Source: Bacteroidota bacterium
Lineage (GTDB): Bacteria; Bacteroidota; Bacteroidia; M30B66
Assembly: GCA_027483445.1 (NCBI GenBank)
Contig: JAIXUS010000082.1
Coordinates: 1 to 64,000, forward strand
Reading direction: 5' to 3'
DNA: 64,000 bases
This document shows positions 2,924 through 57,823 of the stretch, piece by piece. The position numbers and the translations under genes are program-made. The notes below the pieces were generated by a model. That model worked only from the letters and a program-made list of their open reading frames with translations, was not told the origin of the DNA and did no database searches. The first letter of the stretch is position 1. Each line of letters opens with the position of its first letter.

Positions 2924-5290
2924 TTAATTGCTGCGGATGAGGGTTACGACGCCTTTTTTCTCAAAGGCCACGTCTTTGATGTCGGTGCCGGTGATCATGT
3001 AAAAGTACGTGCCGTCGGTCATGTCGTTGTCTTCCAAAGCGCCATTCCAGCCATTGCTTACCTCATTCCACTCGAAAAGAAGCTTGCCCCAACGGTTGAA
3101 AACCCGGCCATTAAAGGTTTTTACCGCATTGTGCTTCACTTGAAAAAGATCGTTGATGCCGTCGCCATTGGGTGAAAACACGTTGGGAACCACCAAAACA
3201 AGCTGGTCGCTCAAGACTTTGATAACCTGGCTGGTGGTATCGGTACAACCGCTCGAATTGGTGCATGCAAGCTGCAAAACGTAGGTTCCGCTGTCGCTAA
3301 AAACGAGGGTTCCCGGCGCGCTGAAGTCGGTTAATACAGAATCGTTCAAAGTCCAAACGCAGGTTTCGGCATTGAGGCTGTTGGAGGTCACTTCTACAGG
3401 CAAAACGGTGTAACCTGAGTCCTGGCTGAGGCTAAATTCAGCTACAACGGGCAATCCGGTAATTTCTAGGGTATCGCTGGCCGTGTTGCAAAGTCCTGTG
3501 CGGCTGAGAATGTATGTGCCGGCCTCGTTTACCTGGATACTGTTGCTTTGAGCGCCTGTGTTCCAAGTGTTTAGCGTCGACTCGGAAGATTCGAGGCTGA
3601 GTGGACCGCCTTCGCAGAGTGAAGTTCCGTTGAGTGGAAGAATTTGCGCGGTAATTAAATCGTTACGCTGCAGCTCTACAACGATCGGAGCGCTTTCGCA
3701 GGATCCTTCAGTAGCCGTTACGTAGAACTCGCCCTCTTCAACCGTAGGTGTGTAGGTGTTTCCACTGCCCAATTCAACATTGAGCGTGCTGTTCGAGTAC
3801 CAGGTAAGGTTACTGCCGCTGGCGCTGAGGCTTGGAATGGGCTCGCCTTCGCAGTACACCACAAATGTATCGGCGGTAGGAATGGCAACCACAGAGAACT
3901 CTACACTCACTGGAACACTGTCGGAGCTGCAGCCTTCGGCCGTTTGGTTTACCCAAAAGGTGGCGTTTTGGTTGGCGGGTGGACTAAACGTATTGCCGGT
4001 GTTGAGCAGTTGATTGAGGGCATTGTCGGCAAACCAATTCGTTGTCGCCCCAGGATCGGCTTGGGCACTGAGGGGTGTTGGCGTTTCGCCATTGCAAAAC
4101 ACGGTTTGCCCGGTTACGATTGGTGTAGCCAGATTTATGATTTGAAAAGTCTGACTTTCAGTATCGGTACAAACACCGCTGCCAACCGTGTAGGTAACGG
4201 TAACGTCGCCATTGAAACCGCTAACATTGATTACCCCATTAAAAACTCCGGGGCCCGACCATGTTCCGCCGGGCGTGCCGGTAACCAGACTGTTGAGCGC
4301 AAGGGTACCAACAGTACCGCATACAATTTCGGGGTTGGTAAAGCTGGCATCTACGTTTGGACTTACGGTAAACGTTTGGGTTACCGAGGCTGTTCCCGGA
4401 TTGCAATCGTTGGTTGGATCAACTGTGTAAGTTATACTCACCTGACCGCTCACCTGAGAAGGGTTGAAGGTAGAACCGGTAATGCCCGGACCTGTCCATG
4501 TTCCACCTGAAGTGCCCGTTACAAGGTTGTTGAGGTTAATTGGAGCGTTGGTCTGACAAAGCGGACCGGGGTTCGTCCATTCGGCCGAGAAAGGCTCAAA
4601 TGGGGCCTGACAGCCGGTATTGCCGTAGGTAGGAGTTCCATCGGGCGTGTAGTCTACAAATGCACCATTCTGATCTCCTTGGACACCGGCAGTTGTTACC
4701 AAGTTACCACGGATATAGGTTACCTCTTCATAACAAGGGTTTGCTCCATTAATTTGTATGCGTAAAGTTTGTTCTTGCGGAGTGGCTATTGCATTGTAAT
4801 TCAAAAAGTGCCCACCGGTCTGGCCAGAATGTTGTTGATAAATCACAAAAAGGGTGTCGGTAAGATTGGCAAATGAATTAAGCGCAGCCGAAACCTCGAA
4901 ACTGGTAATGGCCAATACACGGGCATTCGCCGGTATTACCCCTTGGGGAGGCTCTTGCAAAAAGCCACAAATGTTGGAGATGGTAGAATTAAGTTCAACC
5001 GTTTTATTAGCGGTTTGGGCATTTTGAACAAAGCCACCGAAAACCAGTTGAGGATTTACGTCGACCGATGGCCAACCATTGACAATTTGAATTTCAGTGA
5101 TATTGATTGGATTGGCTCCCACCCGGAAACGGAACATTTCATTAAGCCCTTCTGGACTGCTAAGGTCATCGCAGGAATTGGCAAGTATGGTTTCAACTTC
5201 AATACAATTCTGCGCTTTTCCAGTTATTGCTGCAAAATGGAAAACAAAAAAGACGAGGAATAGGCCGATTGGAAAATGTTTCATCCACAT
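2924..5290 (-). CDS. Secreted protein with type B T9SS sorting domain
   Basis: A 788-residue exported protein. It has an N-terminal signal peptide ending near AITGKAQ, an N-terminal globular part, then several Ig-like/PKD-type modules rich in Gly, Thr and Asn (for example the repeated GTxGGTWxGPG pattern near the middle). The last about 90 residues, from VPNVFSPNGDGINDLF through NRWG to the C-terminus, match the gliding-motility-associated type B T9SS sorting domain (CHU_C). It should therefore cross the outer membrane by T9SS and be attached or released there. Two starts are possible (5290 and 5284, MKHFPIG). No catalytic domain is recognised, so an adhesive or structural surface role is an inference. 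Confidence 0.9.
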   Translation of the reverse strand: MWMKHFPIGLFLVFFVFHFAAITGKAQNCIEVETILANSCDDLSSPEGLNEMFRFRVGANPINITEIQIVNGWPSVDVNPQLVFGGFVQNAQTANKTVELNSTISNICGFLQEPPQGVIPANARVLAITSFEVSAALNSFANLTDTLFVIYQQHSGQTGGHFLNYNAIATPQEQTLRIQINGANPCYEEVTYIRGNLVTTAGVQGDQNGAFVDYTPDGTPTYGNTGCQAPFEPFSAEWTNPGPLCQTNAPINLNNLVTGTSGGTWTGPGITGSTFNPSQVSGQVSITYTVDPTNDCNPGTASVTQTFTVSPNVDASFTNPEIVCGTVGTLALNSLVTGTPGGTWSGPGVFNGVINVSGFNGDVTVTYTVGSGVCTDTESQTFQIINLATPIVTGQTVFCNGETPTPLSAQADPGATTNWFADNALNQLLNTGNTFSPPANQNATFWVNQTAEGCSSDSVPVSVEFSVVAIPTADTFVVYCEGEPIPSLSASGSNLTWYSNSTLNVELGSGNTYTPTVEEGEFYVTATEGSCESAPIVVELQRNDLITAQILPLNGTSLCEGGPLSLESSESTLNTWNTGAQSNSIQVNEAGTYILSRTGLCNTASDTLEITGLPVVAEFSLSQDSGYTVLPVEVTSNSLNAETCVWTLNDSVLTDFSAPGTLVFSDSGTYVLQLACTNSSGCTDTTSQVIKVLSDQLVLVVPNVFSPNGDGINDLFQVKHNAVKTFNGRVFNRWGKLLFEWNEVSNGWNGALEDNDMTDGTYFYMITGTDIKDVAFEKKGVVTLIRSN

Positions 5291-7313: not shown

Positions 7314-7952
7314 ATGAATGCAACTAAGTATACATTTAATGTTTCTCAAACCTTAACACGAATATTCATCATTCTTCTCTCAATTTGCTTATCGGCGCCC
7401 ATCTTTGCTCAGAAAGAGAAGAAGATTCCGAGCCGCTTCAAAAAGGGTTTCATTGTAAAACAAACCGGCGACACACTTTTTGGCCATGTCAATTACAACG
7501 ATATTCTGTACATCCGATTCATGGATCAAAACGGGAAAAAGAAAACGTATACTGCCGCGAAGATCCGCGGTTTTGGAGATCTTGAGCAAAGTCGATTCAT
7601 GGAATCGCATTTCATGGCCCATAAAGACGCATCCTATTTTTTCGAGCGAGTCGTTTCAGGAAAATATCCCTTGCTTTTCAGTTTTGAAAACGCATCCTCA
7701 CAAGCACCTGCCATAGGTGTAAGTGGTCTATTAGTGGGTGTAATGGATGGTTTGATTTCAAGCAAGTATATTTCACCATTTTACTTCGTCAAAGACGGTC
7801 AACTCCGCGTATTACCGGCTAATGCTGATAGATTCCAGGCGACTATGCTGGAGCACTTCTCAGAGGTGGATTACATTATCGCAATTAAAGATTCCCCAGA
7901 ATTCAAGTTCAACAACGTAGTGAGTATATTTCAATACATGAACCCTAGATAG
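7314..7952 (+). CDS. Small secreted protein of unknown function
   Basis: A 212-residue protein with a signal peptide (hydrophobic residues about 15-30, cleavage near PIFAQ). The mature N-terminus has the pattern KKGFIVKQTGDTLFGHVNY, common in Bacteroidota periplasmic or outer-membrane proteins of unknown role (a 'GxIVxxxGDTxxGxVxY' opening followed by a KKKTYTAAKIRGF element). A short hydrophobic glycine-rich stretch (IGVSGLLVGVMDGLI) lies near residue 140. The stop codon TAG at 7950-7952 overlaps the first base of the MITE-like repeat B1, so the original C-terminus may have been altered by that insertion. No function can be assigned. Confidence 0.75.
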   Translation: MNATKYTFNVSQTLTRIFIILLSICLSAPIFAQKEKKIPSRFKKGFIVKQTGDTLFGHVNYNDILYIRFMDQNGKKKTYTAAKIRGFGDLEQSRFMESHFMAHKDASYFFERVVSGKYPLLFSFENASSQAPAIGVSGLLVGVMDGLISSKYISPFYFVKDGQLRVLPANADRFQATMLEHFSEVDYIIAIKDSPEFKFNNVVSIFQYMNPR

Positions 7953-8194
7953 GGCTTACTGAAAAACACTCAATAGTTTTATTGATAACACTTTAGCCTC
8001 TGTTTGAATTAGACCTAATGCAAGAGTTTTTAGTCGAGCTTTTGAAAATCCATGCACGCTTAAATTCATGAAGTTCAATTTTTCGTTAGCCAGAAATAAT
8101 GCATCTGCTTCGTTGCCCGCGGCTCGCAGTATTCAATATACAGCTTCGCCTTTCGCCTCGCATCTGCTGCATTTCTGACTTTTTCAGTAAGCCC
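7952..8194 (+). mobile_element. Family B MITE-like element, copy B1
   Basis: A 243-bp element with terminal inverted repeats: GGGCTTACTGAAAAA at the left end and TTTTTCAGTAAGCCC at the right end. The interior is closely similar to B4 at 57573, including GCGGCTCGCAGTATTCAATA, with no transposase frame. Flanking hexamers are TAGATA and TCCTTA, which match at only three of six positions, so the target duplication is not preserved here. It begins on the stop codon of the preceding gene. Beyond it, 8283-8345 holds a fragment of a family A flank; the rest of the gap to 8440 shows nothing I recognise. Confidence 0.85.
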
Positions 8195-11352: not shown

Positions 11353-11499
11353 CGCCAGCGGGTGCAGCGGATAGCCCGCAGGAACAGCAGAGCCGCCAAA
11401 CATGGCGGCTCTGCTGTGACGAGGACTATGAGCAAAACACGCGGTGCCCGGCGATGCAGCCTCAATGTACCGTGAGGCTCAGCGAGGCAGGCGCCCAAA
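11353..11499 (+). repeat. Family A structured repeat, copy A3
   Basis: The most compact full copy. Its ends are CGCCAGCGGGTGCAGCGGAT and GAGGCAGGCGCCCAA. The central hairpin is perfect over 14 bp, ACAGCAGAGCCGCC (11384-11397) and GGCGGCTCTGCTGT (11404-11417), with a 6-nt loop in place of the long GTGAG stretch of other copies. A second small hairpin, AGCCTCA and TGAGGCT, lies in the right half. It lies between the rpmG promoter and the fumarylacetoacetase terminator; 11211-11352 shows no gene. Confidence 0.85.
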
Positions 11500-11500
11500 C

Positions 11501-11536
11501 AAAAAAGGCAGCACCCGGAAATGGAAACTGCCTTTT
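11501..11536 (-). terminator. Terminator of the purQ-glyA-fumarylacetoacetase run
   Basis: On the minus strand AAAAGGCAG and CTGCCTTTTTT pair around a 16-nt loop and end in a T run. It lies about 20 bp beyond the fumarylacetoacetase stop. Confidence 0.75.
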
Positions 11537-37731: not shown

Positions 37732-37893
37732 GCGCCAGCGGGTGGAGCGAATACCCCGGAAGACAGAGTGAGAGTGAGTGTGAGAGCGTGAGCGCGGGAG
37801 CGAACTCTGTCTGAGGAGTAGCAGCGAAACACGCGGTGCCCGGCGATGCGGCCTCAACCTACCGTGATGCCCAGCGAGGCAGGCGCCCAAAAA
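37732..37893 (+). repeat. Family A structured repeat, copy A4
   Basis: Full copy from AGCGCCAGCGGGTGGAGCGA to GCGAGGCAGGCGCCCAAAAA. The hairpin arms are AGACAGAGT (37761-37769) and ACTCTGTCT (37804-37812), a perfect 9-bp stem; relative to A1 and A2 the bases facing each other have both changed (AAACAGAG/CTCTGTTT to AGACAGAG/CTCTGTCT). The loop is GTGAG-rich, about 34 nt. It lies between the atpD promoter and the end of the PDZ-hydrolase gene. Confidence 0.87.
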
Positions 37894-37925
37894 CTACCCA
37901 ATAAACCAACGCAAATGCAAGATCG

Positions 37926-41548: not shown

Positions 41549-41608
41549 ATTTGGATTGGATTTAATTCCGAATTTGAATTTGGGATGGCAAAAAATCCAA
41601 ATAAAGCA

Positions 41609-41838
41609 GAACTTACTGAATTCATTTTGTATGGCGCACCATGAGCATAAGCGGAGGTTGTCTCTCGGCCTTCTGGCGGGGCTCTAAGATTCATACGCAG
41701 GAACACCAACGGAAACTGAAAAATTTTAGGTACCAGAAGCACGGCGTCTGCCTCATTGCCTGCTGCTTGCACTATCTCGTGTAAAGCTTCGCCTTTATGC
41801 ATTACAAATGTTGTGTTTCTGAAATTTTCAGTTAATCC
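41609..41838 (+). mobile_element. Decayed family B element, copy B2
   Basis: Left end GAACTTACTGAA resembles GGGCTTACTGAA; the right end is CTGAAATTTTCAGTTAATCC. In between, ATTGCCTGCTGCTTGCACTA and AAAGCTTCGCCTTTATGCAT align with B1 and B4 at the same distance from the right end. Many substitutions show it is old. It lies in the gap before the paralogous barrel-like pair, with B3 on the other side in opposite orientation. Confidence 0.65.
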
Positions 41839-41960
41839 AACCCAGTACAATGCATTTTTTCGGAACCCGTGGCTCAAATTAAACATATAGGGTAAATTTC
41901 CCGATTGCAAAAAGTCTTGTCTTTCACTATTACATTTGATCAAAACTTAACTTTTGGTGC

Positions 41961-43607: not shown

Positions 43608-43854
43608 TTCATCGCTACAAAATTTTCAAACTTGCAAGAGAGAAACAGCATCAAAGCAAAGCTGTATATCGAGAACTGCGAGCAGATGGCATCGGAGCAG
43701 TTGATGCATTGCTGGTTTGCGGAAAATTGAGAATCATGAATTCAGGAGTGCATGGATTTTATAAAGTCGCACTAAAAAACCTTGCATTAATCCTCATCCG
43801 AATAGGGGCCAAAGTACAGTTGATAAAGCGAATTGAGGGTTTTTCAGTAAGCCC
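43608..43854 (-). mobile_element. Decayed family B element, copy B3
   Basis: Reverse orientation. The end at 43840-43854 is TTTTTCAGTAAGCCC, a perfect terminal repeat. Inward, CTTGCATTAATCCTCATCCG and AAAGCTGTATATCGAGAACT align with the reverse complement of B4. The other end has lost its terminal repeat. The rest of the 43597-44027 gap shows nothing else. Confidence 0.75.
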
Positions 43855-53941: not shown

Positions 53942-54096
53942 GTCTTAAGTACTTAGTCTGTAACTGTCCTTGCCTAAAATAGGTTGACTTTTTTGGTTCA
54001 ACATTGATTTATTTCCATCGGGTAAATATGAGCCTGAGGTTCTTCTCTTGTGCAGATGAATGAGCTGAAAGCGAATTACAATTTCCGCTTAACTTA

Positions 54097-54168
54097 GAGA
54101 AACACGCGGTGACTGGCGACACAGCCTCATTTACCCGAAATACTCAGCGAGGCATGCGACCCAAAAAA
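54097..54168 (+). repeat. Orphan right half of a family A repeat (A6)
   Basis: GAAACACGCGGTGACTGGCGAC, then ACAGCCTCATTTACCCG and CTCAGCGAGGCATGCGACCC match only the right half of family A. The hairpin and left end are absent. It lies about 115 bp from the flank of full copy A5. The stretch 53942-54096 has no gene. Confidence 0.65.
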
Positions 54169-54224: not shown

Positions 54225-54507
54225 CCCCTTTCAACTTTGAACTTTCGCCTTTCTACTCGTGTAGTGCATGCGAAGCGTTGCGCGCAAGCGGGTGTAGCGG
54301 ATACCCCGAAAAACAGAGTGAGTGTGGGAGTGAGAGTGAGCGAAGAGAAAATATCAGCGTGAGCGAAGAGTGCGTGTGAATGAGAGTGCAAGTGGGAAGG
54401 GAACGCGTTGGCGGCTCTGTTTTGCGGAGTATGAGCGAAACACGCGGTGCCCGGCGAGGAAGCCTCAGTGTACCGTGATGCTCAGCGAGGCATGCGCCCA
54501 AAAAAAT
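54225..54507 (+). repeat. Family A structured repeat, copy A5
   Basis: The longest copy. The flank has CCCTTTCAACTTTGAACTTT, followed by CGCGCAAGCGGGTGTAGCGG. Hairpin arms are AAAACAGAG (54310-54318) and CTCTGTTTT (54415-54423); the loop is about 96 nt of GTGAG-type repeats. The right end is GAGGCATGCGCCCAAAAAAA. It lies between the carbonic anhydrase-like gene and the end of the gene at 54590. Confidence 0.85.
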
Positions 54508-54589
54508 CAATAAAAATGGAATTTTTTATAGCTACGATGCTTATCAGACGTGGGGTTTACGTGATTTTCCTGCTTATTTTCTAACTCCA

Positions 54590-57566: not shown

Positions 57567-57823
57567 TACATAGGGCCTACTGAAAAACACTCAATAGTTT
57601 TATTTAGAGTACTTTAGTCCCCTATTTGAATGAGGCTTAATGCAAGGGTTTTTAGTCAAGCTACTGAAAATTCATGCAAACTTGAATTCACGAAGCTTTG
57701 TTTTTCGTTAGCCAGAAATGCAGCATTTGCTTCGTTGCCTGCGGCTCGCAGTATTCAATATACAGCTTCGCCTTGTCGCCTTGCATCTGCCGCATTTCTG
57801 ACTTTTTCAGTAGGCCCTACATA
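57567..57823 (+). mobile_element. Family B MITE-like element, copy B4, with target duplication
   Basis: The element proper is 57573-57817 (245 bp). Its ends GGGCCTACTGAAAAA and TTTTTCAGTAGGCCC are perfect 15-bp inverted repeats. It is bounded by TACATA on the left (57567-57572) and TACATA on the right (57818-57823), a perfect 6-bp target-site duplication. No frame encodes a transposase. It is the reference copy for B1, B2 and B3. Confidence 0.92.

Follow-up and report, generated by a model that had tools for sequence, protein, structure and literature searches.

A Bacteroidota MITE family with the ends and TANNTA target duplications of ISMae6-like IS5-family insertion sequences

The window analysed here comprises positions 1 to 64,000 (64,000 nucleotides) of contig JAIXUS010000082.1, from the genome assembly of a Bacteroidota bacterium (GCA_027483445.1). 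Near its right-hand end lies a 245-bp unit whose 15-bp inverted ends are exact reverse complements of each other, with TACATA duplicated on both flanks, as the initial annotation had described (Table 1). The unit has the length (within 50–1000 bp) and the terminal inverted repeats of a MITE, and it has no transposase coding capacity, its longest stop-free stretch being 62 codons. Stop-free stretches reach 86 codons in the other window copies, and none of the four copies holds a transposase frame, again as annotated. The family to which the unit belongs has multiple copies with target duplications, and empty sites exist for other copies of it. Motifs of the TGCAAGG type, found in the internal inverted repeat, recur in MITEs from other genera, and in the partner insertion sequences (ISs) described below they directly precede the start of the transposase.

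Table 1. Features of the MITE family in the window; on the + strand the long hairpin is on the right
Feature	Position	Strand	Remark
Left target duplication TACATA	57567..57572	.	Fits the TANNTA pattern of other copies
245-bp MITE	57573..57817	+	Best-preserved window copy
Left 15-bp terminal inverted repeat GGGCCTACTGAAAAA	57573..57587	+
Internal inverted repeat TGCAAGG...CATGCA	57641..57678	+
Long internal hairpin	57713..57800	+	Most conserved part across genera
Right 15-bp terminal inverted repeat	57803..57817	-	Exact reverse complement of the left
Right target duplication TACATA	57818..57823	.
Second full-length copy	7952..8194	+	Both ends intact with one change
Third copy, reversed	43608..43854	-	Intact end 43840-43854, other end lost
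Old, highly degenerate copy	41601..41840	+

Three related copies had been annotated in the window, and all are confirmed, in differing states of decay. The full-length copy at 7952-8194 is identical to the 57573-57817 unit at 212 of 243 aligned bases, and its flanks (CTAGATA on the left, TCCTTA on the right) no longer match, so that it is without a duplication. The reversed copy at 43608-43854, which has lost one end, retains 170 of 244 identical bases. The degenerate copy, annotated at 41609-41838, retains 117 of 238 (49%) overall and 73% over 64 nt in its right part. Another repeat family in the window, rich in GC (CACGCGGTGCCCGGCGATGCAGCC...CAGCGAGGCAGGCGCCCA), is found at 2735-2867, 11378-11510, 37770-37902, 54096-54168 and 54381-54513. 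These repeats adjoin GAGTGTGAGAGCG-like low-complexity blocks, and members of the same family also adjoin MITEs at another locus (L056) and at a congener locus (L092).

The MITE ends are abundant throughout the 4.26-Mb genome, a short-read assembly of 87 contigs, some of which break within MITE copies. A genome-wide search for the terminal sequence GGGCYTACTGAAAAA with at most one mismatch, of the kind that the initial annotation had proposed, gave 50 forward and 62 reverse matches, compared with 1 + 1 for the reversed pattern (112 versus 2). BLAST with the whole 245-bp unit returned 55 pieces. The genome holds tens of full or partial elements, which fall into length classes of about 184, 209 and 243-245 bp. 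Among 40 de-duplicated two-ended elements, drawn from genome stretches around end matches, 12 are flanked by a perfect duplication (6 bp in nine cases, 7 bp in three); re-pairing the flanks over 20,000 rounds produced a mean of 1.1 duplications and a maximum of 7. The target reads TANNTA or TANNNTA on both sides, and imperfect flanks are what older copies would be expected to show. At one locus (L040) a MITE is nested in another, with TAAATA on both sides.

Related elements extend beyond this genome. One congener (G004) is comparably rich in the ends (41 + 38 matches), and end matches are few in the other three of the four further species of the genus. In the right 115 bp, which contain the long hairpin, identity is 91–94% for the best copies from G004 and from a second genus of the same family (G006), and up to 89% for a genome belonging to a different family (G050).

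Relatives that lack an insertion, proposed in the initial annotation as a check on mobility, were found for other copies of the family. Two insertion sites lie about 15 bp apart downstream of one gene. The first is filled in our genome by a 148-bp member at TAATTA, and G004 shows a single CAATTA in its place; the second is filled in G004 by a 243-bp member at ACGTA, and our genome shows a single ATGTA there. The element that follows another gene (L011) is absent from five orthologues in four congeneric genomes, each of which has its own stop codon at that point. The flanks of two further copies (L003 and L005) align in G004 across a joined junction, but intergenic divergence blurs the site and we do not count them as evidence. 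For the copy at 57573-57817 we found no orthologous flanks that would reveal an empty site; its left flank gave only short, repeat-like matches in G004.

The last two bases of the target are TA and the first base of the element is G, so an insertion that splits a TAA or TAG stop codon leaves TAG. At L011 the gene ends GTT AAA TA/G (the slash marks the junction), and the orthologues read AAA or AAG followed by TAA or TAG; at L139 the junction is AAT TA/G, and G004 has AAT TAG. In the window, the first G of the copy at 7952-8194 completes the TAG stop of an open reading frame (ORF) at 7314-7952. We counted 81 ends with TA immediately before them; in 14 of these, the TA/G junction is itself the stop codon of an ORF that is 100 codons or longer. 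Among intergenic TANNTA sites the corresponding figure is 7 of 374, which gives an odds ratio of 11 (p = 5e-7) and an approximately tenfold enrichment. The G that the element always supplies would by itself account for about a twofold excess, and an interrupted gene would be indistinguishable from such a placement. Given these two effects, only the cases supported by orthologues are firm. Insertion into stop codons can stay neutral by a simple rule (TA + G = TAG), for which the empty sites in orthologues provide support.

The copy at 7952-8194 and a MITE of a congener (L094, 60-302) occupy the same stop codon of orthologous genes, in opposite orientations, and belong to different subfamilies; this pair could have arisen either by two parallel insertions into a hot spot or by an inversion combined with conversion. 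A more speculative reading, to which we give little credence, is that the family is a semi-domesticated 3'-end cassette, in which harmless entry into stop codons was combined with selection of the folded right half as an RNA processing or termination signal. If true, this would explain conservation across genera without a resident transposase, as well as the presence of oppositely oriented copies on one stop codon in two species.

The initial annotation had suggested that the transposase is encoded elsewhere and that copies with the same ends should be checked for an enclosed transposase. No such copy was found in our assembly. A long end pair on contig C4 (L058) encloses no transposase and instead contains ORFs resembling an AbiE-type pair and a neighbouring gene; at 3632-5056 of this locus, half a MITE is followed by an ORF pair that by eye resembles an AbiEi/AbiEii-type toxin–antitoxin system. 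Distant end pairs on contigs C55, C40 and C24, considered as autonomous elements, enclose ordinary genes and were rejected.

A search by ends alone across 395 genomes of the class identified inverted end pairs 1.68-1.76 kb apart in four genomes (G365, G044, G218 and G120). Between the ends of all four pairs lies a long transposase ORF, which is disrupted in G365, and the duplications TAATTA and TATTTA flank the IS copies in G044 and G120. The intact transposases are 525-576 amino acids in length (read from stop to stop) and contain the Pfam domains DUF772 and DDE_Tnp_1_2. They score 344-381 bits against the NCBIfam model NF033578, ‘IS5 family transposase’ (cut-off 275), with weaker matches to ISNCY (ISNCY_1) and IS1182 models.

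A protein search of named genomes recovered 47 IS loci, nearly all in Bacteroidota. Their ends follow GGG[TC][CT]T[AG]CTGA, with a few slight deviations (for example, L233 starts with GAG), and TANNTA fits all 16 of those with an exact 6-bp duplication. One end of the IS at L211 is exactly GGGCCTACTGAAAAA, identical to the end of the window MITE. Plasmids of Cyanobacteria, Bacillota and Persicobacter carry relatives at about 40% identity, ISMae6 among them, whose ends are the same and whose duplications measure 6 or 7 bp; the members of this set at L262-L269, annotated as ‘IS5 family’, show the pattern TAN2-3TA. The motif GGGYYTRCTGAAAAA is common to the window MITE, the Bacteroidota ISs, and ISMae6 and its relatives, and 7-bp TAN3TA duplications occur in some ISs and in some MITEs. 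In terminal repeats the window MITE matches autonomous NF033578 members, and in the length and pattern of the target duplication its family matches the NF033578 ISs. In a separate genome that also holds the transposase (G373), a 328-bp direct repeat with an IS-type end (TTTTTCAGTAGACCC TAATTATG) stands in tandem at the start of a contig (L195; G373:C9:1-400).

With the L211 protein as query, we detected no NF033578-type transposase in our genome, nor in nine further genomes from the same family; the same query recovers the known ISs in G120, G044, G218 and others. PF13586 and PF13751 had no match in our genome. The sole PF01609 match was rejected as a partner: it lies on a contig of high GC content (L100; G000:C67) that carries an IS5-like DDE_Tnp_1 transposase and is probably contamination by another bacterium. 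Viral contigs contained neither a match to the right end of the MITE nor a relative of the transposase. An autonomous copy is therefore missing from the same genome as assembled, which in an assembly of 87 contigs is no proof of absence. Either the MITE family is orphaned, or its partner is multi-copy and was lost from the short-read assembly.

We consider it very probable, from the shared ends and duplications, that the window unit is a MITE moved by an NF033578 (ISMae6-like IS5) transposase that inserts at TANNTA. The initial annotation had read the unit as a non-autonomous element, which is borne out by the further copies, the filled and empty sites of other copies, the nested insertion and the same-ended autonomous ISs elsewhere; it had left the transposase family open, as a 6-bp duplication alone does not decide it. 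In the proposed mechanism, a DDE transposase from the ISMae6-like branch would recognize the ends of the unit, a short non-autonomous DNA transposon with terminal inverted repeats of about 15 bp. The enzyme would make staggered cuts at TANNTA, or sometimes TANNNTA, so that 6 (or 7) bp are duplicated on insertion. A transposase of this branch would have moved the copies in our genome, and its autonomous source may since have been lost from the lineage or may lie in unassembled sequence.

The strongest competing explanation, although an improbable one, is that the repeats are former MITEs mobilized by a transposase of a different family, which had converged on similar ends. The lack of an NF033578-type gene in our assembly and in the family would fit this, as would the restriction of the similarity between the window MITE and known ISs to about 20 terminal bp. 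However, both the end sequence and the duplication pattern match the NF033578 branch, from Bacteroidota to Cyanobacteria and Bacillota, and an IS of this branch coexists with a MITE in G120.

A still less probable view is that the repeat is kept for a function at the 3' ends of genes, as a structured element of RNA or DNA comparable to a terminator or a REPIN, and was mobile only in the past. Folding is strong on both strands (z of -5.7 and -6.5), the hairpin is the part best conserved across genera, in 9 of 25 copies both positions of one of its pairs have changed, from G–C to T–A, and copies are about tenfold enriched at stop codons. Yet inverted repeats of transposons fold anyway, the RNAalifold covariation term is about zero (-0.06), and double changes affect only 5 of 47 predicted pairs, two of the five in the terminal repeats. 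Moreover, no Rfam family scored above threshold, a consensus scan found no terminator-like site inside the copy, and the presence of sites varies between congeners. We therefore take the folding as transposon palindromy and not as proof of RNA function. Chance palindromes or an assembly artefact, to which the contig breaks inside copies might point, can be dismissed given the 112 versus 2 end matches, the duplications far above re-pairing and the same element in other species and in another family.

The repeats are a genuine MITE family, of an ordinary kind of mobile element, and what is added here is the likely transposase branch. Anonymous repeats are thereby linked to a transposase branch whose 6-7-bp TANNTA target is distinctive, which helps in annotating Bacteroidota repeats and assembly breaks, and the family is a clear example of abundant MITEs without a detectable partner in their own family of genomes.

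Among named systems, ISMae6 of Microcystis (ends GGGTTTGCTGAATAA / GGGTTTGCTGAAAAAGTCA, duplication TAATTA) has the end motif and target pattern of the window MITE, and the Bacteroidota NF033578 ISs share with it their GGGYYTRCTGA ends and TANNTA. These ISs are autonomous, 1.6-1.76 kb in length with a transposase of 500-575 amino acids, in contrast to the 245 bp of the window MITE; the initial annotation had called for a comparison of the ends with those of known ISs, and the match lies with these elements and ISMae6. ISAcma17 of Acaryochloris is an annotated relative in the ISMae6-like branch, and the copy examined gave no resolved flanking ends. Outside its ends, the window MITE resembles none of the ISs found (20 bp at 95%). 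Because the similarity of its family to known ISs is limited to about 20 bp, we conclude that the interior would have another or an older origin. A 251-bp MITE of Mucilaginibacter sp. MAG_BO124 (G120, L185) has the same end motif as the window MITE and a TAATTA duplication, and it coexists with two NF033578-branch ISs. It shares 81 and 34 bp with the ends of a resident IS and, judged by this similarity, is evidently an internal-deletion derivative of it; its interior is unrelated to that of the window MITE.

BrickBuilt, MITE239 and related MITEs of Porphyromonas gingivalis are likewise Bacteroidota MITEs with IS5-family-type ends, which match IS5-family ISs, and without a transposase remnant (PMC4596501). 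They differ in their ends (for example, GAGACCTTCGCA), in their duplications of 2-5 bp or none, and in having partner ISs resident in the same genome (PMC4596501). In the open-access literature, a scope that offers no proof of novelty, we found nothing on the present MITE or on the TANNTA pattern. Classical subgroups of the IS5 family generate duplications of 2-4, 8 or 9 bp, depending on the subgroup. The 6-7-bp TANNTA duplications of the MITE family and of the NF033578 ISs correspond to none of these lengths. In target duplication, the NF033578 branch thus seems separate from the classical IS5 subgroups, and the ISMae6-like ISs may merit a subgroup of their own.
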